Source: Sialis fuliginosa
Lineage: Eukaryota; Arthropoda; Insecta; Megaloptera; Sialidae
Length of the DNA: 64,000 nt
Assembly (NCBI GenBank): GCA_961205875.1
Contig: OY540817.1
Location: 14,357,001 to 14,421,000 of the forward strand
Reading direction: 5' to 3'
Part shown: piece by piece, positions 3,001-53,558 of the stretch
Numbering within the stretch: position 1 is the first letter of the stretch
How the letters are laid out: each line of letters starts with the position of its first letter
Notes under the pieces: generated by a model
What the model was told of the DNA's origin: nothing
The model's input: only the letters and a program-made list of their open reading frames with translations
Databases searched by the model: none
Program-made: the position numbers and the translations under genes

Positions 3001-3196
3001 GGATATTTTATTTTGAATATCGTTCATTTATATTGCCGTATTTTATGTAATTACATTGATTTTTGTTTTATTCACGTGCTAATGATGTTTTTTTTTGTTT
3101 CTACAAATAAAGTTTATTATTTCTTTACAATTATATTTTTAAGTTATAATATTTTTTTAATAATAATATTTCCCACAATTCTACCGTACCTATATA
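1..3196. other. AT-rich non-coding stretch
   Basis: No reading frame, RNA gene or well-bounded repeat is supported here. The base composition is very AT-rich with many A and T runs. One isolated hAT-like terminus (CAGGGGCGGCGTAC, near 350) has no partner end nearby. A slightly richer patch at 2490-2560 shows no recognisable feature. Confidence 0.6.
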
Positions 3197-3409
3197 AGGT
3201 ACTGGCACCAGTTATGGCCGCTATAAGAGTAAAGTTTACTGTTTTTGTGATTGACGGGCTCATCAAATCACGCTGTATGACAGTTAAATGTATATAGATT
3301 AATGTTCAGAAATGGTAGTAATCAAATATCAACAAATATTTCTAATTTAGTACATTTAATTAAAAAATAGCCATTACTGGGGTAATATCCAAGGCTAATG
3401 CCAGTACCT
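3197..3409 (+). mobile_element. MITE family B, copy 1 (internally deleted)
   Basis: This is a short non-autonomous DNA element. The left end reads AGGTACTGGCACCAG and the right end is the inverted TGCCAGTACCT, each flanked by TA, as expected for a Tc1/mariner-type TA target duplication. At 213 bp it is the shortest two-ended copy. Two full copies of about 550 bp lie at 13650 and 41983, so it has lost the middle. It keeps the left block with 'gtttactgtttttgtgattga' and the right block with 'aatggtagtaatcaaat'. There is no coding capacity. Confidence 0.8.
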
Positions 3410-5009
3410 TATTTACCAAATAAAAAAAATGGTAAAAATAATTCGAACCAAATAGTAACTGTTTCTTGAAATAGAAATAATATAATATAACAGTTAGTAT
3501 GAAAATTGAACTGAAATCTTACAAATATTAAATTTAATGAAATATTAAACCGAAATAAAAAATGTATTTAATAAAATAATACTTGTTTGGTTTCAATTAA
3601 TTATTCAACTGTAAAAGTAATTTTAAATTACAAAAAATCATTCAAAATAAGTAGCACGGTATATTGTTATAGGGGTTCATTCGGTTCATATAATAATATG
3701 TAGGTAGATACATATATTAAAATTAAAAATGATATTGAATGAATTGAGAATAAGTGTTTAAAAAAAGTTAATTATGTATTTATGAATAAAAATTTTATGC
3801 TAGTTTCACACTGTTGGAAAAATGCGATTTTTAGCAAGGATATTATTTTTCGTCTTTGAATAGTTGGGTAGGTACTTATATTCAAGAAAACCTGGAGTAA
3901 TTATCCAGTATCTATAACCTGACCAACGAATTGATAAAAATGATTTTATATAATAATATGTTTCATAACTATTCTTGTAAGGTATGATTATAAATTATTG
4001 ATTTTCGATGAGTAGATGATTCTTAATTAATTTAAAGAAAATTGTATTTTAAAAAACGAACTGCAGTGACTTGTGACTAACATTTTTTTAAATATAAAAG
4101 AATATAAGTATTAAAAATAATAAAACATTTTGTGCTAATTATACTCTGTATAACTTTTAAATAAAACAGTATTTCTTATACAAACAGTAAAAAAAATTAA
4201 TTGAAAAAGTGTCTTATATTTACTTCTTGTAAATATATACATACCTACATAAAATCATGGCCCTCAGAAAGGGGGTTGACAGGCCTGACGTGCCGACTCA
4301 AAAAACATTTTTTGGTCGTTATCAAAAAAATGTCTTAGATTTCTAAGCGGAAAGGAGCTCGCCGAAAATTTTAATTTTAATTTTAAGCAGTTAGTGATTA
4401 TTGCTTCTAAACTTTCATAACTGATTATTTTTTTATAAATAATCTCTTCTAATTAACTTTAACCTGTTATTAGTTTTCAGTATTGATTTTTAACAACGTA
4501 CCAGCATAATGCCGGTACTAGTTTTTATAAATGCCAGAATCCTTTGTAAGATAATATAGGAATAAATCACACAAGAATTTATTAACGAATCACAAACTAT
4601 AGAACGACAAAACTGTCACCCACACAAAGGTGAGACCGTCGTCGTGTCCATCGTCTTTTGTTTTTGTCTGCTATGACATATGTATCTGATACACACACAC
4701 GCAAATTCATACACACATGCGCATATAAACTACTGTTGAACGAACCTCGGGCAATATTCTAATCAAGAATGGTTTACACTTTACACCAAATAAGATATAG
4801 TTGAGTTGAGTTTGTTAATTTTATTAAGGGGACAGACCCAGTTGGGACTTCCAAAAAAGGTCTTTTTAGGATTTTTTTTGGCCACGCATTAAAATAATTA
4901 ATAACAAATGTTTTCCCACATGAAAGATATGTATTTACAGAAAATATTGCAATTTTTTTATGGCAAAATATTAAAAAATAAGTGGGATACAGAAAATTTG
5001 GGAGGGGTC
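3410..5009. other. AT-rich non-coding stretch
   Basis: No gene is supported. A patch at 4255-4320 (ggccctcagaaaggggg...) is richer in G+C but is not recognised. A fragment near 4500-4530 (accagcataatgccggtac) faintly resembles the family B terminus but is too poor to call. Confidence 0.5.
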
Positions 5010-8281: not shown

Positions 8282-8576
8282 CAGCGATTCTAAACCTGTG
8301 GGGCGTGATAAGACTAAATGGGGAGTGCGAGCAAATCGAGAAAAAATATATTATTAAAAAAATTATTTAATGATGAATTGTGATTGAAAATTGGATCGCA
8401 AATACTAAAAGGTTGAGAAAAGCTGTATTAAAATTGTAAATCATTTTGACAGTTACATATTTCATTAAAAAGTTAAATTAATATATAGATCTTTGTTTTT
8501 CTAATCGGAGAGAGGGTTCCCTGAAAAATAATTGATCAAAAGGGGTCTCTAGACGATATAAGTTTAAGAACCGCTG
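8282..8576. mobile_element. hAT-type MITE, decayed duplication
   Basis: The ends are CAGCGATTCTAAACCTG and, inverted, CAGCGGTTCTTAAACT, the CAG...CTG termini common in insect hAT elements. The interior carries the typical 'gtggggcgtga' and 'aaaaggggtctct' blocks. The length is 295 bp with no coding capacity. The flanking octamers (attaaaat / caatagtg) do not match, so the insertion is old or one end is rearranged. It resembles the 53356 copy at its ends. Confidence 0.7.
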
Positions 8577-8989
8577 CAATAGTGGATTAAAATAAAAAGA
8601 ACATATATTATAATATAATTTTAAAATGAAATTATTTACCTATTCAATGTACGGTTGTTTTTGATGAACTTTTCTTAAAGGACTGTAACAATTTGATATT
8701 TTGATATGTTAATAAACATACATTTATATGTTGATTTTGGTACCAGTGAATATTTTTTTTAGAAAATTTGTTTTGAAAGTAAAATTTATATTTCACATTT
8801 TAAATTTTTTATGAAATTCAGTTTGTAAGGTATACAAAATTGTAAAATATTGATATAATAGACTTTGGCTTTTGAGAAAAAAGAAAAAAACTCGCAAACT
8901 CCAAATAAATATAAATAAAATCAGGCTATTTCAAGAATACCACGTTTGAGATATACTGTATACAATTATTGTTGGTTTTATTCAAGTTT

Positions 8990-13223: not shown

Positions 13224-14384
13224 ACAGTAGTGGTTTCTAAACTTTATGTTACTACGCGTCCCTTTAAAAAAATCTCATCTCCCCCACTCCTTTATTTTAT
13301 AAAATAATAAAGACACGTTTTAAAAAGGTATACAATGTATTAATACAGAAATGTTTATTAGTACAAACTTCATTAAATCTAGGTATTATTGAGGAGTATT
13401 AAACGATCTCGATATTTGAATTTCATTGCAACTTATGCAAAAAATTCCGCTTCAATAAATATGATGTTACGAATGGCAGGTTGTTTGAAGTGTTATATTC
13501 TTCACTTCGATTCAACTAGGTTTTCACTCTGAAACTGTTTGAAGTATCGCATGATAATTCTATCAGTTTTTCCTTTTCAATAGTTGTCAGTCTAAAACTA
13601 CACATAGTTACGTGACTTTCAGGAACAGGTATTATTTTATTTATATGTAAGGTAGTGGCACCAGTTTTGGCAAGGACTCCAGTAATGGTAAATTTTTTAT
13701 TAAATTTACTGAATTAGAAATACGTGTTGATATTTGATTACTACCATTTCTGAATTTTAATTTATATACATTTAACTGTCTTACAGCGTGATTTGATGAT
13801 AGGTGTAAAAATGGTGGACGTTTAAACTAATTATTAGTATAATTTATTTATTAATTATTATATTATCATACCAACTGCTTTACATTTTTCAAATTTGACG
13901 ATTCTTTCTTTTATATATTTTGTGTTGTAGTACTTATCATTTTGTAATCATTAACAAGTGTCCATCACTGCGTGCTCATTACTGGTTTTACCTTTGTCAT
14001 TACTGGAGAAAAAGCATGAACAAAATATAAGGCTATAATTTGAAAAACAAACTATATTTGCGGTCTTTGGTTATTAAATTGATTAAATAAAGATTTACTT
14101 GTTTTATTAGTAACATAAGTTCATGAGAATTACAAAAAACAAGCACTTTAATAAAAAAAACAACCGAAAACTTGCTCTTATAGCGACCATAACTGGTGCA
14201 TTTATCTTATACATTTTTTTTTATAATTGTACCTAAATATTATGTTTTGAAAATTACACTTCTGTTAAACTTTTCGCGCATCCCTTTGCACTAGTCCGCG
14301 TCTCCCAAAGGAGACAATATTTAATTTTATTCACATGAAAGGAGTATTGTTTGCAAACTATTTCACAACCCTGCAGTCATACAT
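13224..14384. mobile_element. Possible decayed hAT-like element hosting family B copy
   Basis: The left edge reads CAGTAGTGGTTTCTAAAC followed by 'ctacgcgtccc', and the right part has 'cgcgcatccctttgcac' and 'cgcgtctcccaaagg' before an end resembling 'cacaaccctgcag'. These blocks resemble the subterminal parts of hAT-type elements. A family B MITE at 13650-14207 sits inside. No matching octamer duplication was found, so the limits and class are tentative. Confidence 0.35.
13650..14207 (-). mobile_element. MITE family B, copy 2 (full length)
   Basis: A 558-bp element in the orientation opposite to copy 1. The left end is AGGTAGTGGCACCAG and the right end is inverted 'tagcgaccataactggtgc', with TA on each side. 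The interior includes 'gaaatacgtgttgatatttg', 'cttacagcgtgatttgatga' and 'tcactgcgtgctcattactg', all shared with the 27882 and 41983 copies. The terminal bases on the right have drifted. Confidence 0.8.
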
Positions 14385-18898: not shown

Positions 18899-19065
18899 CA
18901 AAAATTGCTTTTATGTTACAAAGAAAATTAAAAACATTTGGGTTCTGTTTACGTGGACTTATGACCTGCAAAACATTAATCCTTAACAAAATAAATGATT
19001 TCATCGTCATAAGTACTTAATGTAGATATAATTTGCCCTTTACAGAATCCAATTCGGTTTGCTAT

Positions 19066-19298
19066 GTTAATATAATAATTAATGAATAAATTATGTATAC
19101 TAATAATTAGTTTAAATGTCCACCATTTTGACACCTATTGACCGAATGTTATCAAATCACGTTGTAAGACAGTTTAATGTATGTATATATAGATTCTGAA
19201 ATGGTAGTAATAAAATATTAACAAATATAACTAATTCAATATATTTTATTAAAAAATTGCCATTACTGGAGTCATTTCCAAGACTAGTGCCAGTACCT
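19066..19298 (+). mobile_element. MITE family B, copy 3 (left-truncated)
   Basis: Only the right part is present. It runs from the 'ttaatataataattaatgaa' block through 'gtccaccattttgacacc' and 'gtaagacagtt' to the inverted end GTGCCAGTACCT followed by TA. The left terminus is missing, so it is either truncated on insertion or later deleted. Confidence 0.7.
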
Positions 19299-20599
19299 TA
19301 ATTAACAGTTAAATATTTATTACAATGTTAATCATTTTTAAAAATGGCGTTTATTTTTTTCGTTTTCAAAAAAATAAGCTCATTTTAAAACGATTAACTG
19401 TAGTAAATCATGGACTGTTATATACGTATAACTTTAAAGCTACTGGGATGTTCTTTAATTTAAATTATTGCTCTTTTAAATGTCTTTCCCCGATTGCAAG
19501 ATATAACTCCCTAAAATGTACGTTTATTTCTTAAAAAAATGCACCTGAAGGTAATATCCAATTACATATTCCTATATGAACTGACAAATATTTCGTATAC
19601 TGCCTTTCAAAGATTAAAACAAAATTTTTTCGTTCCATCATATTATATGCTCCATTAAATTTCTGTATAATCTATACCTACAAAGTATAAAACAGTCTCA
19701 TGCCGCATCTGTCTGGGTCAGTAACTACTGAATGGATTTTATTTAGGTTTGGTTGTATAATTTGTGGATATTTTGATATAAATAAATATAAAAATATGAT
19801 AACTAGCAATAAGTGAAATCAATATTAATAGGTTTATTATAGATTAAATTTATATCTCTCGATAACAGCAGGTCCAATGCCCTAGTTTACTATATTTAAA
19901 AATTGCAAATTAAATAAAGATAGAGATAGATAATTTTATTGAATGTTTTTCTTGTGATCATTTAAAAATTGTAATAATTTTTTTTTACTCAAGTTAATTT
20001 GATGTAAATATTCTTTATTGTTTGATTTAGTTGGTAGATTATCTTCTTTTGTAATACAATACTGAAATATGTGAAGTAAATGATTTTATAAAGAATATCT
20101 TTTAAATTACTCGTTCTTTATATTACTGCGCATTAGATGGATTAAATGAAAAATGTATTTCATGTTAGTATTTATTATATTGCAACCCAGCCCTAACAGA
20201 AACAGAAGGTCAATTCTATCAAGAAACGGTAAATTATTTTTTAATGCGTTCCCTTTCTTTTCCGTTCCATTTTTTTTTTGATTCCTTCTTTCCGTTTTGC
20301 CGAAGTTCTTTTATGTTCGGTATTGATTTTCTTTTGTTTACGTATTAAAATATGTTGAAATTGAATTCTGAATGAAAGATGATTCTATTATCATTGAAAG
20401 AATTATTTATTTATTCTTGTCGAGTGAACAGTGAAAATTACAGTGCTCCCTAAACATTCACACATTTAAATACTGCATGAAGAAATCATTAAGGTACAGT
20501 ATCTTTTATACTTCATTTTATTTTTATATCTAGGCATGTGGAGTATCACAATGTAGATCTCAATTAGTAGAATATGTTATTATTTATACCTATATTTTT
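19299..20599. other. AT-rich non-coding stretch
   Basis: No gene is supported. A short segment near 19685-19745 (cagtctcatgccgcatctgtctgggtcag...) resembles the tail of a common insect interspersed repeat. It is too short to classify. Confidence 0.45.
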
Positions 20600-27881: not shown

Positions 27882-28382
27882 AGGTACGTACTGGAACCGG
27901 TCTTGGATCATACCCCAGTGTTGGCTTCTTGTTTAATTAAATGTACTAAATTAGAAATGTTTGTTGATATTTGATTACTGCCATTACTGAATCATAATTT
28001 ATAGACGCTTAACAGCTAAATTTTGTAAACAGATTTAATTTGATGACAATCGGCCAATGGGTGTCAAAATCTGCTTTACATTGTTTCGATTACGATTCTT
28101 TATTTTATAACTTTTGTGTTGTAGTTCTTATCATTTTGTAATAAATTAGCAAGTGTTAATCACTGGGTGCCCATTACTTTTTTTTAAATCCATTATTGGA
28201 GAAAAAAAACATACAAAATACTATAATTTAAAAAACAAACTATATTTGTGGACTTTGGTACTTACATAAATTGTTTTAATAAAGAGATACTTGTTTTATT
28301 AGTAACATGAGATTATGAGAGTTACAAAAAGAAGCCCACCAATCTCAAAAAACTTAAAGTGTCAAGACTGGTTCCAGTACCT
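27882..28382 (-). mobile_element. MITE family B, copy 4
   Basis: The left end is AGGTACGTACTGGAACCGG followed by 'tcttgga', and the right end is inverted 'tcaagactggttccagtacct', with TA on both sides. It is 501 bp in the same orientation as the 13650 copy. The interior holds 'tgttgatatttgattactg', 'ggccaatgggtgtcaaaa' and 'actatatttgtggactttgg'. The left end carries a small GTAC duplication. Confidence 0.8.
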
Positions 28383-40008: not shown

Positions 40009-41073
40009 CAGTGGCGAGGCGTGAAATTTTTAATAAGGGAAGCATATTTTGTCAATCTTCTCCCTCCTATTAATAAAAAACTATGAAACACCTTAAGTTA
40101 AATCTATTTATATAGTAACTAAATGATTCTACGTCTTATTTTTTGTATTTTAGTCGATATTTGTATGACGAATTGAAGTTCACTGCAGGAAATTTCACAA
40201 ATTTTTTTTTGATTTCGTTAATTTATTGTTTATTGTATAAAAAATGACGCAAAAAGTTGAAATATTCAAACCGCAGGTCTGTATCTCAAACCGTTATCGA
40301 GATATAGCCCCTCAATGTTTTAGTTTTTTCAAATTTTTGAAGAAAAAAGGCCATAACTTTTGAACGGGTGATCGGAATTGATTTTAGTTGACGGATTTGA
40401 AATCAGCGTGTTAAAATCTATATAATGACAAATATAATACTTTAAAATCCGATAAAAAAATTTTTGTCAAAAAACGACATTTTTTTAAGGTATACCCCTT
40501 TGAATTTTTTCGATTTTTCGCGAAATTTTTTTTCTCGAGTTTTAAGGTGTTGTACATGTCATTATATAGATTTTGACATGCTGATTCCAAATCCGTCAAC
40601 TAAAATCAATTCCGACCATCCGTTCAAAAGTTACAGCCATTTTTCTTTAAAATTAAAAAAAAACTAAAACTTTGAGAGGCTATATCTGAAGAACGGTTTG
40701 AGATGCAAACCTGCAGTTTGAAAATTTTAACTTTTCACGTCATTTTCTATACAATAAACATACTTTTAATGAAATAAAAAATTAAAAATTTTTTAGTGAA
40801 ATTTCCTGCAGTGAACTTCAATCAGTCATACAAATATCGACTAAAATACAAAAAAATAAGACGTAGAGGTATTATAGTTTTATAATTGAGCGTGTAAATT
40901 AATATTAAATGCTATTTTTGACTTTTGGTTAAAATATTTGAGTTGCGCATGATGAATATTCTAATAATATTTTTAAATTAATATTTATTAACTGAAAACA
41001 CAGATTTGTATTAATTTACCCATAAAGCAGGAGAAGCACTGCTTCCCTTGCTTCTAATGACGCTTCGCCACTG
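40009..41073. mobile_element. Long hAT-type foldback element, perfect 8-bp duplication
   Basis: The ends are CAGTGGCGAGGCGTG and, inverted, CAGTGGCGAAGCGTC. Identical octamers CATAAAAC flank it (40001-40008 and 41074-41081), the hallmark of a hAT insertion. Two arms of about 360 bp each (roughly 40128-40485 and 40515-40870) are inverted, imperfect copies with a short centre near 40500. Shared arm blocks include 'tacgtctta', 'cactgcaggaaatttcac', 'cataacttttgaacgg' and 'ttgacggatttg'. The arms also produce overlapping chance frames on both strands. There is no transposase. A transcript through it would fold into a long hairpin. Confidence 0.9.
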
Positions 41074-41982
41074 CATAAAACAAAAATCTTTTCAATGAAA
41101 TCATTTATTCCGCAGGTTTCCATTAAAAAAAAAACAAGTTGTATAGATTTAATTTATTTGTTTTATAATATTTATAGTTTTGCCCAATGACCTGACTCTA
41201 AGCCCGGACCAAATCGTTTCACGGTCAGCGAACTTCAATAAATTATTTATAATATTTTGATAAATTTTTTTTATAAAAGTTTATTTAAATCGAGTGTAGC
41301 TATCAGCTAGTGAAGGAATAATCAAATAATGAATTATATTTTAAAGATGTGAATGGATATATTAAAATAGAGTATAATGTATAATTAGTGCCAGCAACGG
41401 TTGATGCAAAAATGTATTTTGCACAATTAATATAAAATTAGTGATTTTTATGATATGATAAACAAGTCCAGTTAAAAATAATAATTATCATGTCATTCGG
41501 TATTAATAAAATGAATTTAAATTCAAATGATTACTGAATCTAAATCATAAACAGTACCCGATTATGTTCTAATGTTATATAAGTTATGTCAACAAGTCTG
41601 GTGATTACAGGTAGATTAAATGATAAAATCCTTATAAAGGAGTAAATTGTAAATTTGATGCCGGAATAGTACCTTAAATGTTATGTATAATTTTACAGTA
41701 TGTACTTACGAAATATAATATGTGTACACATTGTACAAGGGAAGGTTTAGTGGCAAAGAGGAACCGTTATACATAATACACAAATACACAAAAACTATCA
41801 ACTTTGTCAACGTAGTGATATAAAATTAAGAACAAATATTTAATATAACTTCTATAAATCTAATACAGCGGTTACCAAACTGTCGATCGCAAGGAATCTG
41901 GAAATCTAGTAGTTTTTAATGATTAAACTGCTTTGTAAGTAAGGATACTCATATATACATATATGTAGTACATGTAGCTATA

Positions 41983-42532
41983 AGGTACTGGCACCAGTTA
42001 TGACCGCTATAAAAGAAAGGTTTACTGTTTTTGTGATTGACTGGCTTCTTTTTTGTAATTCTCATGAACTCATGTAAATTATAAAATAAGTAACTCTTTA
42101 TTTAATCAATTTAATTACTATATCAAGATCACCACGGAAGCCTCAAGACTCATAAACTCATGTTACTAATAAAACAAATACCTCTTTATTAAATCAATTT
42201 ATTTAATTACCAATGTCCACAAATGTAGTTTGTTATTTAAATTATAGACTTTTATTTTGTTTATGTTTTTCTCCAATAATGGATAAAGTAAAACCAGTAA
42301 TGAGCACGCAGTGATGGACACTTGCTAATGATTAAAAGATACAAAAGAAAGAATCGTCAAATTTGAAACAATGTAAAGCAGTTGCTATGATAATATATGT
42401 AACAATTAATAAATAAATTAATATTTGACACCTATTGACCGATTATCATCAAATCACGCTGTAAGACAGTTAAATGTACATAGATTAATATTCAGAAATG
42501 GCAGTCATGTCCAAGACTGGTGCCAGAAACCT
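41983..42532 (+). mobile_element. MITE family B, copy 5 (full length)
   Basis: The left end is AGGTACTGGCACCAG and the right end is inverted 'ccaagactggtgccagaaacct', with TA on each side. It is 550 bp in the same orientation as copy 1. The interior includes an extra partial duplication in which 'aactcatgt...aaataagtaactctttattt' is followed by 'aactcatgttactaataaaac...acctctttatta'. Non-coding. Confidence 0.85.
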
Positions 42533-45500
42533 TAACTAGTAGCTCCCACACTTCTTTCGTTAGGAGACCAATGAAGCAATGATTCAATTTAAAATTAATA
42601 TTTTTGTTGTTTAAATTGGTAAAGCTGGTAATATCAAGAATAATAATATAAGTGTGGTATATGTTAATAGTTAGTGACGTCACCAATACATTGTCTAGTT
42701 AAAAATAAAAATATCCTCGACGCCATTCTGTCGAGTAAATCGCTACTACTAAATTATTTCCTATAGGAAGCACCAAAGAAACAACAATAAATTCAACAAC
42801 AAAAAAACAAAACGAGCAGTGTGTTTTTACACCTTATCTCAATTCGGGGGTATTAACAAAAAACCTATTTGGAGGTTTTAACAGACAAACACCTTATAGG
42901 TTGTCTCCATCAATCTCGAACACGGGTCAGTTGATTAGGATTTGTCTTGAGTGCAAGACATCGAGTGTATGCTAGAGAGAAAGAAGGGTAGAAAGCAGAG
43001 GCGTAGTTTAAATTAATCCCTTGAAGACGAATCTAAAGAATTAAACTCATGTACAAAAAGCGACATTTCTAATGATTTTAATAAATCTATATGAGTTTGA
43101 GCTTTACAAATTGTATTAAAAGCTGTTAAGTAGTGGAATCATGTGGATTTCCAAGATGTACGACTGTCTGAAATATGAAATAAATATTATCAAGAATTTT
43201 AAATGGCCATGAAACTGTATTTTAGAACCCCTTTTATAAAATATATTTTTTTTAAATTTGTTTTTCGAAAAAATGAATACAACATAAATTACAGATAATA
43301 ATATAAACTACAATTTTGAACCTGACCATTTTTCTCTAATTTGCACTGTTTCAAAGTAATTCGAAAAATTCAAAAATCGTATCCGGTTGAAAGATCGTTT
43401 TTAAAACGTTTTATTCCCAGACAAAAATTAATCTTAAATAAAAAATTTCATCCTTCTACGATTTGCCGTATTTGAGTTACAGCGCTTACAGACAGACGGG
43501 CACACAGACATCATGGCGAAAATAGTCAGAATGGATTCAGGGACGGTCAAAATGGATAATATTCCATATACATGGGCATAGGAAAGTAAAAATTTTAAAA
43601 ACACATATTTCTGAAAAAAATGGAACGATGGAAATGTCTATTTTTGTTCGACTACTCCTCATTTACTTAAAAAGCTGTGTTCACTTACGTGCATTTATAG
43701 TAAAATCCATATTTCGTTATACATAATATTTATTAATTATTTGACACCTAATAGAAGATGAATAGAAAATATTAGTATTAAATGTTCGATAAACAGTTTT
43801 TTTTTTTTAATTTTCGGTTTAATATTTCCTATCCTAATTCGTCTGGAAACAATTTGTTGTGCACGCCCTTGACGAAAGAGGATAGTGCGAAGAAGGAGAA
43901 CGAAAGTAAGAAATAGAATTAACTTTTGAGTGGCAGTTGCATGTTCTAAGGAACGTGCTAATTCGGTCAGGACTATTAACAGTGGTTTTGCTTCAGACCG
44001 TTCTTAGTTCAACAGTGTGAGAATAGAGTGATTGAAAAGTTACTGTATAAACATTAACCAATTAAATAGCTATTAATATAGACATGATGATATAGAAAAT
44101 AATATAAATGTATATACCATACACTATTTCAACACGATTATCGAATTACGAGCTTTGTATTTAACGTTTGAAAAATACTGCAGCCTTTTATTTTTCTCTT
44201 GTACAAAATTTGAGCATGAATTAAAGACAATAGACAAGAAAGTATGAGAAATGTTTATTTTGTATATTTTTTACAACCTTTTATTTAACTTCACCTGTGT
44301 TAGTAAGATAATCTTTTTAAAAATTTGTGTTACCCTGATTCGTCTGGCTAAGGTCGATTAAATCTGTTGGGGTGATGTCCAAAACTATAACAGTATTGTG
44401 ATGGAATCGTCCATATAAAATTGTTATGTCAATTTGTACTTCGAAAGTGTAAAAATATCATTGCACTTTCGATTAAAAATATATTTATTCTAATAACAGT
44501 AGATAATTTTGTTAAAATAAGAGTAGGACACTAATATACAACATACAAACAATTGCTAATTTAAAATTTAGCCGTTTTCCAATCGAAACAAATATAATTG
44601 TTGTACATTATACATATTTAATCCAACAATCGTTTTAATGTAGAATTGTATCCAAGTACAGAACCCCTGATCATGTAATTTATCACCGACAGGTGTCTCC
44701 ACTGCGGCTACCGGTCATGTCACTGCCTGTCTAATGACCTTGGGTAGTCTCAAACCGCTACTTGGTGTCTACTAAAATGCGAAAGTAGTGAATAAATGTT
44801 TTTACTGGAGAAGGGTCGACTAAAATGTCGGGAGATTTGTATCTGTTCCCTGATTTCACTCTAAAATGTCGGAAGGAATTTTTCTCACGTAATGCTTTTA
44901 AAATAAAAATGAAATTGTTGCACTTTACGGATTACTCTCTGTCTACTTTCTATTCATTATTTAAATTACTTTTTTTATTTATTATATCGTCCAACATTTT
45001 ATTGCAATTAATAAGAAGATATTAATTAAGAATACTTCGAGGCAAATTAAAACGTAGTGTCTTACGGAAGCACTTGGTATTATTTTATTACTTTTCTTAC
45101 AGAGATAATATAATATTTAATAAATGTCTCTCGTAGGAAGTTATTAAAGATTTTTATTCTATTCATAACGAATATAGTTGTAGAAAAATTAATTGAGAAA
45201 TAAAAAGTATAATAATATTGAAAGTTTTGAAACTCTGTTAAATAGAACTATATGAAACTCAACAACTGTTTTCTTTTTTTTAATTTTATTTTCATTGTAA
45301 AGAATTGAATCCAAGTATGTATTTGGTTTCACAAGTAAACTTTTAAAACTAATAAAATGTTAATAAGCTGTAAAAACTTTTATAATTGCGTTCTGTATTG
45401 ATTTAGTAATTATTAAGTTTTAAATGATTTTGTTTTACACTACAATGCTCTCTTATATGTATATTATATTATCAAATCTGAAATATATTAGAAATATGAT

Positions 45501-46001: not shown

Positions 46002-48549
46002 CCCCTGCAGAGAAGGGGCTGCAGTAATGGTCCCGTAAATTGCCAACCAAAGAGAGCGTTTAGACCAGTAGTTAAACAAACGACTGTGGTTTTTTTGTGT
46101 TCTTCGTTCTTTGAACACGTACGGATGCTTTGAAAAACATTATAAAATACCGCATGTCGCGGTTTCGGCGGGCCTGTCTCTATTTTTCATTCGGTTACCA
46201 TTTAACGTGGTCTTATTTTTATTTGATACTCTTTGCGGTCGTTACCTTACTTTATGTTATTTAACTTTGCACATTGTTTCACTGAAGAAGCGACATTGCA
46301 GTTGTGTGGGTCAAGTTTTAAGTAAAAGTACTTGAAATATGTAGCCTATATAATTATGTAATAATTAGAATTTAATTTGTATTTGTTTAGTATCGTATTT
46401 TTATTTATGTATTTGTCAGAAACGTAGAATAAATTTTAAAAATCGCTAAACGAAAGTTACCTATTTAGTTCCATACTTTTTTAAGTGATAATGCTTTAAG
46501 ATGGTATTATAATCTAGGATTTATTGTTTTCTAATTTTAGGGTATTAAAAAACATAAAAATTTGTTTGACAAAATATAAAGAATTTTTTCAAACAAATAA
46601 ATTACAATTGAATATTAGTTAGTTATTTACTAAATTTCTCGCAAATTTTTCAAATGAGGATTCGATAACAAGATTTATAAAAGAAATTAATACTAATAAA
46701 TGTTATGTATAAAATTCTTGTTTTCAAATTTGTAACTCTATAGTAATTTTGAGAAAAAATAAATAATGATAAAATTTACCGAGAATTTGATCTTAGTGTT
46801 CATATCTACTGTTATATAAATTAATTAATGTGTTTTTAATAGAAAAAACATATTTATACTAAATAAATATAATTGTCTTTGCACTCTTCAATAATTCTGT
46901 TCCTCTTTATTTGAAATGATAAGTAATTTAAAGAATTTGACAATTAAAGATGTTTATACTCGTATTTCTACAATACAATCTGAATTCTTAACGAATTCCA
47001 TGAATTTTGTAAATACTGTTAATAAAATAAATTAATTGAATTATTATTATTATAATATAATTGTATTATTATAATATTAGGAATTTTTGTTGCTCATGTT
47101 GCTATAAATATTTTACGTTTACCACTATTCACTGAATTTTTGCCTTTCATTGAAATTTTCTATATAAGCCCGTCAAATTGACGAGTTCAGTAAATCTAGT
47201 GTTAATCACGTTAATGATAAGAAAAATCTCTGTTTTGATTTAAATGACTTTAATTTTGATTCCTATACGAATATACAACAAAAATGAGTATGTTTTAGTT
47301 GTAAGACCATAAGATTTTCAAAACAGGTTTTCAGAAAAATGTCTGTCTTGTCTGCCGTTATTTTCGACAAACTAGTCGAAAGATTTTTAAAATTTAGTTT
47401 TTGTTTCTTACGTTGGGCTTCATGAATAATTTTGTCCAAATTTTTTTACCAAAAACAGATACAAATTAATTAATTTAAAACCCATATCTCTTGTGCGGGA
47501 AGTCTAGATAATATATTTAAAATAAAATTATTAAAATATATGGGTAAATGTATTTGCCTCTTGCATTATAAAAATAAAGTAAATATAACTTCTTGCATTG
47601 TTCTGTTATTTTATAGCTGAAAAAAATTATAAAGTAATGTTATAATATATTTTTGTATAATAAGAATTTAGAGTTATAAGATAACGATGTGTACTGCATA
47701 ATATTTATTACGAAAAGAACGTGTCTTATATCCAAAACGCCTGATATATAAAATTCTAGATAGATTATATTAACTAAATTACTTTCGCGAGAAGATAAAT
47801 ACGTTGTTAAAATATTTCTCAGACAGATAAAACGTTTTTGATTTTAAAAACATCGGTGTCTATCAGGCGCGCGTGACACCCCAGCGTTTGGCAAGAAGTC
47901 TTCAATCTTTTACACGTCTTTCTCACTTTATCTTGTTAAGTTTTATGTGGTAACATAAATTTCATAGCTGGGAGATAGAAATTACCTACGTACACTTGCA
48001 GTTTCCTTTTAAATGATCTTGCGCTCTTTTATACACACTTTTTCAGACGGTAACAGAATAATGTCGAAGATTTTGCACGTGATATTGAAATTATAAATTA
48101 TGAGTTGTAATAAATGATTCTTGGCTCATAGGTACAAGTTATGTCGTTCTGTTCATTTATTTGGATAATAGAAAAACGTGTTCTATTAGAAATTAGTAAA
48201 TAGTCTATGATTTTGACTTCTTCCTCAAAAAATATTATTTATTCATACTGACTGTTGCTAATCAAATTTCATACACATTTTTTAGTTCTTTACTTCTACA
48301 GTATTGTTATTTTTGGGATTACATGAAAGTAGAATATTTCTTATCTAACTTTATAAAAATAAATTTTATTTTTGACGTTTAATAATTTCATCACATAGTA
48401 ACCTATGCAATAAAAAACAGGCGAGAATCCGAACAGATGTCAAATGTCAAAAACGTGCTGATGTAAATTACGTAACGATGTGATGAATAAAAACATAAAC
48501 ATTAAGAAGATAGACGCCACAAAACTTATGTATATAAAAAATATTATTT
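46002..48549. other. Upstream region of the EFR3-like gene, no clear features
   Basis: AT-rich and mostly featureless. No canonical core promoter could be assigned upstream of the gene at 48550. The 110 bp before the start include 'gcgagaatccgaac' and 'gtcaaaaacgtgctgatg' but no clear TATA plus initiator pair. Confidence 0.4.
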
Positions 48550-50223
48550 ATGAATAACGAAATAGATCGGAAAATTTTAGAATTATGTAGATTATGTTTA
48601 CCGTCTACATCTGCCGAGGTTGTATTTGCAAGACGAAGTGATACTATGGTTAAGGCTGTTAAAAAAACCGAGCATTTGATATCGAGAATGGGCAAAACGA
48701 CGTTCACGCCAAACCACATAACAAGTTTAACTTGGTGTACATTGGTTGGCGTTCAGTATTTCTGGGATCCAACATTTTTCGTACATGTGAAAAAACCCGA
48801 GAGATCTATGAAGAAAAAATCCAAATCAAACTTTTTAGAATTGGTTAAAATAGCAACAAATTTGGACTTCCATACGTTCTGTATATCTATCATGACATAC
48901 GTTATTGACTCGGAAATGATAGACGAAATATATTTAAGTGCAGAAGTGTTTCAAGCTACAATGAGGTACCCTTATGTGAATAACAATATTATTCTTTATA
49001 TCCTTGAATATTTAGATCAGAATATTCTTGATAACACCCAATACGCTCGACAGTATTCAAAAATACTATGCATTTTGCTTACTACTCATCAACTCAAGGA
49101 TGTAGATGCTATAATCTTAAACCGCATATTTAACTTATACAAAGCAGGGTCTATGCTATGTACAGACTACCACAGTGCTTATTCTTACCTTAAAAAAGGA
49201 CTGGACACTTGTATGAGGAGTCTTATACAATCCGCTTCGAACAGCGACTTGTCATACATTATTCGAGAACTATCAATATGGTTATTCGACGATGACATAA
49301 CTGATTACAATTTGTACGAATTCGGAGGCTTAATAGTATTTGCAGCTAAAATATTTGAAATAAAATTCTACAACAACGAGCTTACTTCAGATTTTTTTCC
49401 ACTCATCGCTAGTATGATTACATCAGTGAACCCATTCCAAAGTCTATTAGGAAACCATGTTTTTCAGCTTTTATTCGACAGAAACGAAAATCTCCAAAAC
49501 CTATTGGTACCTCAATATTTCAATGAAAATTCATTATACGGAATAAATCGAGCACCACTGTTTGTGGAAGACAGAACGTTCTTAAAGACATACAGAGAAC
49601 TTATATATCAAAACTTCAATATGTGTATTAGACTACACAGTTCAGATAGAATGCATCTGCAAACAATATATACATCTCTTGCATTATTAATTATAGAAGT
49701 ACCGTGTGCATATTCAGCATGCATGGTAACACATTTACTAATGGATGTTCAGGAATCGTTATTAAAAGATGATAACATAACTCTAATGAATTCATACCAG
49801 ATACATTCTACGATTATAAGTCTGATGTCATTGATTTGTTGGATACACGGAGCGGAAGATCTTTACAAGCATGTCGAGATGGTGAAAAACTTGAGGTGTA
49901 GGAAAGCACCGTATTTAAATCCGCCTTTATGCATACATCATAGGTTTGGAGCGCATCATATTTTATGGAAGAAGGCGGATTTGTTTTTAGATGATATGGA
50001 AGTGAGGTTTGGTTTGTGGAAGTGCTTTAAGGGTATGTCAACGAGGAAGAAGTTTGGTAGCATGGGAAGAAGCAGTGTTGGAAGGAATAGCGTTGGGAGG
50101 AGCAGTGTTTTGAAGACTGCTGTCGGAAGAAACAGTGTTGGGAGGAGCAGTGTTGGCAGGAGCAGTGTTGGCAGGAGCAGTGTTGGAAGGACCAGTAGTG
50201 GAAGGGTATCGGTTACCAAATGA
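48550..50223 (+). CDS. Intronless EFR3-like protein (PI4KIIIalpha membrane-anchor family)
   Basis: One uninterrupted 557-codon frame. An in-frame TAA 15 bp upstream (48535-48537) makes this Met the first possible start. The start context is weak (T at -3). Known EFR3 proteins are palmitoylated helical-repeat proteins that hold the PI4KIIIalpha complex (with TTC7 and FAM126) at the plasma membrane to make PI4P. The Drosophila member is rolling blackout/Stambha A. Matches to the remembered family sequence run collinearly: WDPTFF-adjacent helices, ILEYLDQ (151-157), GNHVFQLLFDRNEN (301-314; family LMDRHDN), YTSLALLIIE (374-383; family YTSLALITIE), and YKHVEMVKNLRCRKAPYL (439-456; family ...RTMEAPYF). 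It is short for the family (about 800 residues). It lacks much of the N-terminal part with the palmitoylated Cys cluster (only C13 and C16 remain) and most of the C-terminal region. It ends in a GRSSV-type repeat tail. It is probably a retrocopy or divergent paralog kept under selection. Its function cannot be assumed equal to EFR3. Confidence 0.75.
   Translation: MNNEIDRKILELCRLCLPSTSAEVVFARRSDTMVKAVKKTEHLISRMGKTTFTPNHITSLTWCTLVGVQYFWDPTFFVHVKKPERSMKKKSKSNFLELVKIATNLDFHTFCISIMTYVIDSEMIDEIYLSAEVFQATMRYPYVNNNIILYILEYLDQNILDNTQYARQYSKILCILLTTHQLKDVDAIILNRIFNLYKAGSMLCTDYHSAYSYLKKGLDTCMRSLIQSASNSDLSYIIRELSIWLFDDDITDYNLYEFGGLIVFAAKIFEIKFYNNELTSDFFPLIASMITSVNPFQSLLGNHVFQLLFDRNENLQNLLVPQYFNENSLYGINRAPLFVEDRTFLKTYRELIYQNFNMCIRLHSSDRMHLQTIYTSLALLIIEVPCAYSACMVTHLLMDVQESLLKDDNITLMNSYQIHSTIISLMSLICWIHGAEDLYKHVEMVKNLRCRKAPYLNPPLCIHHRFGAHHILWKKADLFLDDMEVRFGLWKCFKGMSTRKKFGSMGRSSVGRNSVGRSSVLKTAVGRNSVGRSSVGRSSVGRSSVGRTSSGRVSVTK
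50065..50214 (+). repeat. Coding 15-bp minisatellite (GRSSV x10)
   Basis: Ten in-frame 15-bp units encode residues 506-555 of the EFR3-like protein: GRSSV, GRNSV, GRSSV, LKTAV, GRNSV, GRSSV x3, GRTSS and GRVSV. The three consecutive GRSSV units from 50140 differ from each other at only a few bases, so this part expanded most recently. The product is a basic, serine-rich tail with repeated R-x-S sites that basophilic kinases could use. The minus strand is also open here (repeated LLLPT), but only as a shadow of the repeat. Confidence 0.9.
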
Positions 50224-52067
50224 CGTGATGATGTTGTGTTTAATACGGAAGTAAAGATTAATATTAATTATTATGTTGAAGTTTTATTTTATCTTTGTAT
50301 AATATATGAACTAAATATATTATTTTTATAGCTAAAAAGTTCTTAAATAATATATAGGTTGAGTCTAAAATTGGGCCAACATTCTAAATAAGATAAAAAC
50401 AAAAAATTCAATCGGAATAATTTTTCAAACTACTATGTTCTCGTTTATATAAAAAAGTCTTGTGCTGGCCAAAGCAAATTTTGTTCAAACATACCATAAA
50501 AATTGACTGAAGATTTTAAATAATGTTGGTACATAAGATAATATACTTATATAAATCCCTTAAAATCTATTTCAATTAGACAGTTTTACGAACGAAAAAT
50601 TCGATTAAATACATTTCAGTCTTTGTTTATTTTTTAATCAATGATACTGAACATTTATTTTTTACAGCGCTGGCTGAGTTTAAGAAACGCTATTTTCAAT
50701 GTAAAGTGGGCGTGGATCGGAGAACGGGCTGATTTATATGCAGTTTTTTGTTCTGGCATTCACCTACTACAATTCACGTGAGTGTGGGGTTATATATAAC
50801 AAAACTTATTAAGTTTTTTCTCGTTAGCGTTCTTTCTGAATTCGGTAAGACACAAAATAATAAATTTTTTTATATCGCTGAAGTACTGAATTGTAAAATT
50901 AATTTCGGATATTTTTTGTTGACTGCATAGACAACTTTTAATTTATATTTCATAATAGATCGAGGTAGATATTAAAAATTAAGGTATTTATAAACCATGA
51001 CTGAAATTATAATTACATAAATAAAATTAATTTTTTGTGTATGTATACTAAATAAAAGGAAATTAAGACGTTAAAATTAACGATGAAAGAAAATGTAATA
51101 AATTTTGATTAACTTCAATTAAAAACAATGTTTGAAAATCATTAAGGTAAAGAATGTAGGTATATAATAATTTATCATTTATTTTTTTACATAAAAATTA
51201 AGAAGACTTTATTATTTAAAATAAAAGTCCAGTAGCTATAAACTATCAAATTGTTACCGATTTTGTATAAAAAAACTGTACAAATTGTTTTAAATCGTTC
51301 TGAAATACATATATGCAAATTTAATTCAGTGAGTAAATGGTAGGTACCCATTCTAATAACACACATTTTTTTTTTGATTTTGTGTGGCGCAGAGCGTGGT
51401 TTGATTAATTCTACCTGCACTTACACACGCTATGTCACTAATTTCCATCTAAATTCCGTAATTTCAACGCGTTGGCTGTTTAATATTTCAGACAATATTC
51501 CATTTAACGATCGTATCATGCATGGTTTTAGATTATGATGAAATACCAACACATTTCACAAGTTATACACATATGTTCGTACCTGCGAGTTGGATAAAAG
51601 GTAGGTAAAGGTTCGGTGCGAGGGTTTTCAATGTATCACTTATACTGGATAGCACAAACGGTGATTAACAGTACATAAAGTGTAATTAAATATGTGTTTT
51701 TCTGTTCCATAAAACATGTTTCCCTTAAAATGCTCGATTAACTTAACAGGCCACGAATGGCTAATTGAGTCAATTGAGATCTTAGAAAAGTTGTTAAATA
51801 TGGCGGGTGTTCGTCCGATGGTTTATTTTGACATACACTAAAAGGTTTTGTTTACTAGGTACTCATTTTAATCTAACCATACTCTAACTGATTCTAACTG
51901 ATAGGTAACTATTTATCAAAAATCAGTGGACAAAATTCTCTTAAAAAAATGAAGATATGTAGTTGTTTGAAGTTTCTCATGTTATAGTGTATATATTGCA
52001 CTCACTTCGCCAATACATTTTATTTACGATATTACTAAATTGCTCTTATTGTTAGGTTTCATTTATA
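50224..52067. other. 3' flank of the EFR3-like gene and AT-rich spacer
   Basis: No AATAAA lies in the first 600 bp after the stop. ATTAAA and AATATA variants occur (for example near 50602 and 50300) but none can be assigned. No poly(A) tract or target-site duplication marks a recent retrocopy. No other gene is supported. Confidence 0.45.
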
Positions 52068-52344
52068 CCGGGTGTTTTTTTTAAACTTTCCAGCGGATTG
52101 TTTCCAAAATATCGAATTTTCACAGAAAATGTTTCAGAAAACAAAAAATAAGCATCTTTTACTTGAAACATTTAAAAAAAAGAAGATATTTCTGGATATT
52201 AAATAATTTTTTACTCGAAAACTATAAATTTTTAATTTAATATTTAGCCCTCTCGAAACCATGAAACTTTTGTCTGAAAAATTTTCTCTGAAAATTTGTT
52301 ATTTTGGAAATAATCCACTGGAAAGTATTTTTAAAAACATTCTG
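52068..52344. mobile_element. Foldback MITE, mariner-like, TA-flanked
   Basis: The left end CCGGGTGTTTTTTTT and the right end, inverted, CAGAATGTTTTT, each follow TA. The inverted arms extend about 80 bp and share 'aactttccag', 'ggattgtttccaaaata' (right copy 'ggattatttccaaaataa'), 'aattttca' and 'agaaaat'. The length is 277 bp with no frame. The TIR start and TA duplication suit a mariner-type MITE. Confidence 0.75.
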
Positions 52345-53355
52345 TATAACGCGTTAATTGAACAATTAACTAATGCTCGGATATTATTTTTTAGCATGAA
52401 AAGTATCAGTTTGATGCTCTGATAAAACAGTTTCAAATAAAACCTTGTCGCCATTGTAGTGGGTGGGGGTGTGAATATTATTTATTTGGAACACATTTAT
52501 TATATTTTTTAATTCTTCTCTTATAATTATAATTAAATTGAAAACGCAAAAGTTAAATAATCTATTACTGGTTGATAATTTTCTAACTAAAATTGAAAAA
52601 ATTAATAAAAGGTGATGATATAAAAATGAAATACACAATATGTATCATTTTTCAAAAGTATCTATTTCACAAATTAACATTTCTAATTAGCAAGCATTCG
52701 TAAATAAAATTAAAAACAATTCAATAATTTAATCTAGCAACTACATTTTACTGTACATTTTTCCAAGCATTATAAAAATATTCTTTTATTTATGCTTCAC
52801 ATCGTATTATATATATTATATTAATAACGCAAAGAAATAAATTATATCCTGGATAAAAATTATCTCGCTTTACAGCAAAAGGGTAATGCCTGTAATTTAG
52901 TGAATTTTTAAATATATTTATTTTTCATTAAATTTATAATTATAATGCTATCTTGGTACATAAATGATATAATCTTTTACATTAGTTACTTAGTTAAGAT
53001 TTAATAATATAATTTATAACGCATTGTATAACGTTGTTTTATTCTCGTAACAATTATGAGCAGTATTTAATATTTTATAGCTGACATTTATATCATTAAT
53101 TATTTAATTTTTTTTAAATAAATGTGCATTTTTTACTTTATATATATATGTTATAATAGTATAGGTACATGATTAATGTGAGATTTGAATAAAATTTTAT
53201 TTTTCCTACAAAATTTCAAATTTCAAAAATAAACATTCATCAAATTTTCTTGATTGATGAGAAAATTATTTTTCTTTTCCACTCTAAGATTAAACATTTT
53301 AAAATAAATTTAATTAAATATAACCAAATTTAATTTGTATTTGTGTACTCTATGG
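52345..53355. other. AT-rich non-coding stretch
   Basis: No gene or bounded repeat is supported. Confidence 0.5.
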
Positions 53356-53558
53356 CAGCGGTTCTTAAATTTATATGGTCTAGGGACCCCTTTTGAACAA
53401 TTATTTTTCAGAGATCCCTTCCCCGGATAGAAAAACAAAGAAGGTCGTTAGATACTAATTAATCACTGGTGAATAGAAATGTAAAAGTACTTTAATTTAT
53501 GCCAAACATGTTTCACGGATCCCCGGCAAAAGTTCAGACCCTAGTTTAAGAACCACTG
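53356..53558. mobile_element. hAT-type MITE with 8-bp duplication
   Basis: The ends are CAGCGGTTCTTAAATTT and, inverted, CAGTGGTTCTTAAACTAG. The flanking octamers CTCTATGG (53348-53355) and CTCTATTG (53559-53566) match at 7 of 8. Inner blocks 'tctagggaccccttttgaac' and 'cacggatccccggcaaaag' are typical subterminal sequence. It is 203 bp and non-coding. It is related at its ends to the 8282 element. Confidence 0.85.

Follow-up and report, generated by a model that had tools for sequence, protein, structure and literature searches.

In this work, we have analysed a window of 64,000 nt in which one long open reading frame, on the + strand, codes for a protein that carries a block of EFR3. The frame runs from ATG to TGA through 557 continuous codons, with no introns in the coding frame, exactly as a preliminary description of this DNA had given it, and the motifs cited there are present (FDRNEN at residues 309–314, YTSLALLIIE at 374–383 and KAPYL at 452–456 of the product). 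The features discussed are the following.

48550..50223, + strand: EFR3-like protein ORF, 557 codons, single exon, ATG to TGA (ORF calling, Markov control)
48531..48539, + strand: TATA-box-like TATATAAAA, beginning 19 bp 5΄ of the first ATG (weak evidence)
48646..48648, + strand: alternative start codon M33, context ACTATGG, against TTTATGA at the first ATG
48550..49395, + strand: N half, residues 1–282, mostly helical in a low-confidence model, with no detectable homology; replaced or unconstrained
49399..49992, + strand: EFR3-homologous segment, residues 284–481, collinear with about residues 438–630 of fly EFR3/RBO (BLASTP, profile, hhalign)
50011..50220, + strand: C-terminal 70 residues, with 16 K/R, no D/E and 21 S/T, standing where EFR3 has its C-terminus
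50033..50038, + strand: GTATGT, donor-like hexamer, the lone match in the ORF to three donor-like hexamers tested
50065..50214, + strand: ten in-frame 15-bp units, GRSSV and variants, one LKTAV (repeat analysis)

The frame and its surroundings

This is the sole ORF of at least 120 aa with an ATG, GTG or TTG start in the window. Measured from stop to stop it comprises 561 codons, against 140, 122 and 120 for the runners-up, and when the window was copied 60 times with an order-2 Markov model the stop-free maximum was 155 aa, with a median of 126; its length is far beyond chance. As far as it was examined, the remaining DNA is free of genes, as had been stated: a further 337 stop-free stretches of at least 45 aa are present, 30 of which were compared with Pfam and gave four weak matches, with E between 0.015 and 0.072 and all short of the curated cut-off, and no tRNA (ARAGORN) and no Rfam family at gathering score was found in the window. 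Opposite the repeat array lies a stop-free frame of 103 codons (49959–50267, − strand), at a place where all three minus frames are open; these open frames probably result from the repeat unit itself, so the openness of the array itself proves little. At the 5΄ side, the start context of M33 is better than that of the first ATG by the usual start-codon context rule, and TATATAAA is found 17 times on the + strand of the window, which weakens the TATA-box-like reading.

The composition of the frame differs from that of its surroundings. The GC content at the three codon positions of the first 497 codons is 37, 31 and 35%, compared with 27 and 25% in the two 3-kb flanks; at third positions it amounts to 174/497 (35%) against 26% in the flanks, and is alike in the two halves of the ORF (35.1 and 34.9%). 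When the first 497 codons were evolved neutrally by substitutions only, 0/300 runs were still open at 90% protein identity. A copy so diverged is thus unlikely to be a neutral relic, and its frame has probably been kept under selection. Frame survival is the best evidence of selection obtainable from one sequence, and it argues against decay; an ordinary decaying copy would hold little interest.

Homology to EFR3 along the frame

Our comparisons, made with working reference sequences, support homology between residues 284–481 of the ORF and EFR3. In a one-target search, BLASTP of the ORF against the fly EFR3 reference gave 46.2 bits (E 3e-9) over ORF residues 284–500, which align with fly residues 438–647 at 22% identity in 220 columns. 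A two-sequence EFR3 profile scored 57.0 bits on the ORF, against 5.8 for the best of the 601 shuffles that received a score and −3.7 for the reversed sequence (HMMER gave scores for 601, 757 and 722 of 1000 shuffles of the core, N half and C half, respectively), and hhalign of the ORF with EFR3 reached a score of 72.0 (probability 96.3%, E 1.6e-9), the maximum of 100 shuffles being 24.9. With the human EFR3A reference the ORF shares 21.7% identity in 157 columns, including Y-T-S-L-A-L and A-P-Y, and 20 columns are invariant across the ORF, fly and human proteins, among them D-R-x-x-N and, from the KAPYLNPP region, the A and one of the P residues. Over the retained part, a three-way MAFFT alignment has 203 columns; 51 of these are identical between fly and human, 47 between the ORF and fly and 38 between the ORF and human, so in this part the divergence of the ORF does not clearly exceed that between the fly and human proteins. 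Of residues 1–505, for which a profile search against EFR3 had been suggested, 284–481 thus match by all three methods; residues 1–282 score within their shuffles.

The fly and human reference sequences are working versions not drawn from a database, and their middle part is without an independent check. The fly EFR3 reference is recognised by the Pfam family EFR3_ARM (PF21052; E 7.7e-39), matches yeast Efr3 (4n5a; E 1.2e-8) and, through its C-terminal part, weakly matches the human EFR3A chain 9bax_C (E 0.044). The fly and human references are 37% identical, close to the published figure of roughly 34% (review, PMC12024565).

Pfam returned no family for the ORF, either whole or as residues 1–500, at E up to 10. 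This silence is expected because PF21052 spans residues 45–142 only of fly EFR3, a part that the ORF is without. Matches to UrtE in NCBIfam (E 0.083) and, with a 220-residue piece of the ORF, to ZapC_C in Pfam (E 0.14) are far below cut-off and were discarded. A PDB sequence search with the ORF produced three matches, the best of which (E 0.024) is to the low-complexity tail, and a profile built from three sequences of the retained block hit just two methyl-coenzyme M reductase chains (E 1.7 and 1.9); neither query matched yeast Efr3 or any other solved EFR3 chain in the PDB. No relatives of the ORF were found in viral contigs, species genomes and phages, nor of the fly EFR3 reference in the viral contigs and species genomes, collections that hold few or no insects. 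A single-sequence structure model of residues 1–498 consists of helices at a mean pLDDT of 43.4; the fold search made with this low-confidence model gave 527 matches with E no higher than 10, of which none reached 0.001, and yeast Efr3 is absent among the best 50 of the 527. We therefore draw no conclusion on the fold from it.

For residues 1–282, neither profile search, end-free alignment nor hhalign gave a score against EFR3 above those of shuffles. In the end-free alignments the observed score was reached by 24, 10, 46 and 10 of 150 shuffles (residues 1–320, 91–320, 91–300 and 1–283, respectively), and hhalign scored 13.35, the shuffle mean being 15.8. In the reference sequences the corresponding part is the better conserved one, fly and human being identical at 138/297 positions (46%) over residues 135–436 and at 44/177 (25%) over residues 437–613. 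The C half of the ORF keeps 20 of the 51 columns in which fly and human agree and 27 of the 152 others. N halves simulated at this retention were detected (at least 7 bits) in 100/100 cases under each of two replacement models; detection fell to 44/100 and 11/100 at 20% retention, and to 10/100 and 2/100 at 15%. The simulations are without insertions or deletions, which favours detection, and their C region reached a median of 32 or 9 bits under the two models, against 59 for the real C half, which works against it. Since the N half would be seen at the retention of the C half, it has been either replaced or freed from EFR3 constraint. In a forced three-way MAFFT alignment it matches 31/124 of the columns shared by fly and human, an alignment that forces residues into place and that we give no weight as evidence, and a distant homology, with about 20% or less of those columns retained, may lie beneath. 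The length of the core (497 residues, compared with 510 in fly 135–644) and a permissive hhalign realignment that joins ORF residues 2–497 to fly 135–644 from end to end would favour relaxed divergence over replacement. The apparent inversion of conservation is unexpected, and its basis is one sequence and working references.

Both functional ends of EFR3 are missing from the ORF. Its N-terminus is MNNEIDRKILELCRLC, in which C13 and C16 are the only cysteines, and no EFR3-style cysteine cluster stands at the very start; the claim that this cluster had been lost therefore holds for the clustered cysteines and has to be qualified for the two that exist nearby. The pattern M..C..CC..L.P is unmatched in the six frames of the window, and Pfam found no match in the ORF to PF21052, the N-terminal EFR3 armadillo repeat. 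At the other end, the helices that bind TTC7 and FAM126 are absent from the ORF, and the GRSSV tail stands in their place; the pattern [FYLI][DEN][ASG][MLIV]K[KRQ][AS] is likewise unmatched in six frames of the window, for which the power of tblastn with C-terminal chunks was 0/18. We thus agree with the previous account that the ORF is single-exon and truncated at both ends.

We can also confirm that the tail is a new repeat sequence, the ten units being in frame (TRF reports 9.4 copies, at 50065–50205), and the 70 terminal residues carry a charge of +16. Within the array, pN/pS in the coding frame is 0.35 for nine units without LKTAV (0.45 with it), compared with 0.75–1.64 in the other five frames. 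When distinct changes alone are counted, 10/15 are nonsynonymous, which is not significant (P = 0.19); this count is fairer than a permutation result of 0/10000, which counts copies sharing ancestry.

The Drosophila EFR3 homolog RBO/StmA (cmp44E), a helical rod which we take to be 806 aa long, is collinear with the ORF over fly 438–647 and ORF 284–500. The fly protein has the MPCGCC start, the PF21052 ARM repeat and an EFR3A-like C-terminal part, whereas the ORF is without all three and has instead a GRSSV tail that RBO/StmA does not possess. Human EFR3A has in its C-terminal part a V of helices that the ORF lacks. As reported in PMC11941745, isoform 2 of EFR3A/B is, like the ORF, without the palmitoylated cysteine cluster; at 787 aa against 817, isoform 2 of EFR3B keeps by its length most of EFR3, and the ORF does not.

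Origin of the frame

The human EFR3A gene has up to 40 exons (PMC11941745). An intronless frame in a multi-exon family suggests an old retrocopy, and we consider such an origin plausible. No run of eight or more A was found within 1.5 kb downstream of the ORF, and 47751–48560 and 50224–51400 share no word longer than 11 bp that could be a target-site duplication. There is thus no scar of retroposition, which an old copy would be expected to have lost. Across eight lepidopteran species, 1904 intact retrocopies have been reported (185 to 316 per species), 541 of them single-exon retrogenes and 1133 chimeric, that is, multi-exon, and those of silkworm show a bias towards testis (PMC11675541); an opsin retrogene is reported for a moth (PMC5070202). 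Lepidopteran single-exon retrogenes are likewise intronless and intact in frame; the ORF differs from them in being without poly(A) and target-site duplication, and a lepidopteran host, in which such copies would be common, is an assumption of the preliminary description. Among the matches listed for EFR3 together with retrogenes or moths, no EFR3 retrocopy is described, and in one paper on Lepidoptera EFR3 is a single table entry.

We propose that the ORF is an old EFR3 paralog, intact and intronless, which has evolved fast and is most likely a retrogene; its product would act as a helical scaffold no longer coupled to the PI4KA complex. We hold this to be somewhat better than an even bet. 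A possible alternative, to which we give appreciable weight while thinking it doubtful, is that the protein is a chimera in which a 5΄-truncated EFR3 retrocopy was joined to an unrelated N half of 282 residues and a newly grown repeat tail. The failure to detect the N half, even though the part of EFR3 that it would match is the more conserved one, points in this direction, as does the abundance of chimeras among lepidopteran retrocopies. Against it stand the fit of the core to the fly rod in length and, under permissive hhalign, from end to end, the likeness of both halves in third-position GC and in helical pattern (at low confidence), and the absence of a Pfam match of the N half to any other family. 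The two explanations overlap, since the paralog reading leaves open whether the first half of the rod was lost or replaced.

The preliminary description had also considered that the frame might be an exon of the ordinary EFR3 gene. We find it unlikely that the frame belongs, as a single exon, to a larger and diverged EFR3 gene with several exons, in which splicing at the GTATGT (50033) would make the repeat tail intronic. Acceptor-like tracts do start at 50658, 50814 and 53415, downstream of the donor-like site, and the open minus frames make the openness of the array weak proof that it is coding. On the 5΄ side, the interval from the in-frame stop upstream to the ATG contains no splice-acceptor AG. 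With the fly EFR3 reference, tblastn at E up to 20 gave one match in the window, the ORF itself, and no EFR3 N-terminal exon was found in the window, including the 48.5 kb upstream. A 35-residue match to the human EFR3A reference at 42901–43005 (E 11) was taken as chance. As controls, planted chunks of human EFR3A were recovered in 15/15 cases for the N-terminal part, 38/60 for the middle and 0/18 for the C-terminal part under an overlap rule; under a stricter rule (at most 10 bases past the plant), chunks of 30, 50 and 80 aa were recovered in 2/7, 4/7 and 3/7 cases for the N-terminal part and in 8/25, 5/24 and 11/23 for the rest. Thus the exclusion of an ordinary EFR3 exon stands at the 5΄ side, and diverged middle or C-terminal exons could have escaped, as did 22/60 and 18/18 of the planted chunks. 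The exon reading has further against it that the BLASTP alignment reaches, weakly, beyond the donor to residue 500, and that the C-terminal helix motif is unmatched throughout the window.

Possible roles of the retained rod block and the tail

Most of what is known about EFR3 concerns its two ends, one of which anchors it to the membrane while the other tethers the kinase complex. In mammals, EFR3 needs a palmitoylated N-terminal cysteine-rich motif in order to arrive at the membrane; this mechanism is described as shared among metazoans but not with yeast (PMC12024565). The C-terminus binds TTC7 and FAM126 (PMC11661448, PMC13142943); in human EFR3A, the three helices of residues 724–787 sit as a V on TTC7B/FAM126A, and EFR3B from which residues 716–817 were removed is reported to cause no significant increase in PI4KA recruitment (PMC11661448).

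These observations bear on the function first suggested for the ORF, that of a second anchor of the PI4K complex. For this to work, the basic tail or acylated C13/C16 would replace the palmitoylated N-terminus, and the rod would still bind the kinase complex. The plant EFR3 (EFOP) is held at the membrane by lipid anchoring and electrostatic interactions (PMC8774046), and yeast Efr3 has a basic patch through which it interacts with phosphatidylinositols (PMC11941745), so that a tail of +16 with two cysteines near the N-terminus gives the idea some substance. With both ends gone, and in particular with none of the C-terminal helices through which EFR3 contacts TTC7 and FAM126 (PMC11661448), a second anchor is disfavoured and we regard it as improbable. 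The other suggestion, that the protein competes with EFR3 for the PI4KA complex in a dominant-negative way, fits the homology in the rod and the lack of an EFR3-like N-terminal cysteine cluster; such a competitor would be expected to retain the region that binds the kinase and to drop the one that binds the membrane, and because the binding helices would be needed here too and the known kinase-binding part is lost as well, we find it quite improbable. That the resemblance to EFR3 is due to chance or low complexity, the ORF being unrelated, would agree with the silence of Pfam, the use of working references and the lack of an EFR3 match in the PDB for ORF and retained block, and is very improbable given that the Pfam family covers a missing part and that the profile and hhalign scores exceed those of shuffled and reversed sequences so widely.

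We return to the uncoupled paralog. Judged with the working references, it keeps a single block of the helical rod of EFR3, at about fly 438–630. The N-terminal cysteines, the ARM repeat, the first and conserved half of the rod, and the TTC7/FAM126 helices of the C-terminus are lost or replaced, and their functions would be lost with them. The retained block may bind a partner, and the serine-rich GRSSV tail of +16 could provide an electrostatic attachment, possibly tuned by phosphorylation, to an acidic surface such as a membrane, tubulin or nucleic acid; in yeast and plant EFR3, basic patches do act at membranes (PMC11941745, PMC8774046). The EFR3-like protein might be restricted to the male germ line. 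A more specific proposal, which we advance tentatively and consider less likely to be right than wrong, takes the inverted conservation at face value: a paralog that keeps the poorly conserved part of the rod, with the conserved half and both functional ends gone, would point to an unrecognised partner-binding site at about 438–630 (fly numbering), independent of the PI4KA complex, in a lineage-specific and possibly germ-line scaffold with a polybasic phospho-tail. The EFR3 gene is essential in fly (PMC12024565), and the uncoupled paralog, if real, would show how such a gene gives rise to a specialised copy, and would be a natural experiment on the role of the retained rod block.

Other repeats were noted in the window. 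About 740 bp at 40128–40867 match their own reverse complement with 83% identity, as a large palindrome or foldback element. A family of a few hundred bases occurs in at least five places and in both orientations (3193–3428, 13632–14211, 19059–19304, 27902–28351 and 41979–42505), with pairwise pieces 80–93% identical, and is probably a non-autonomous transposable element. Two inverted copies, 88% identical over 93 columns, lie far apart at 8490–8582 and 53350–53441. Finally, inverted arms of about 80 bp (52063–52141 and 52269–52349), 83% identical and about 130 bp apart, sit about 1.8 kb downstream of the EFR3-like ORF.
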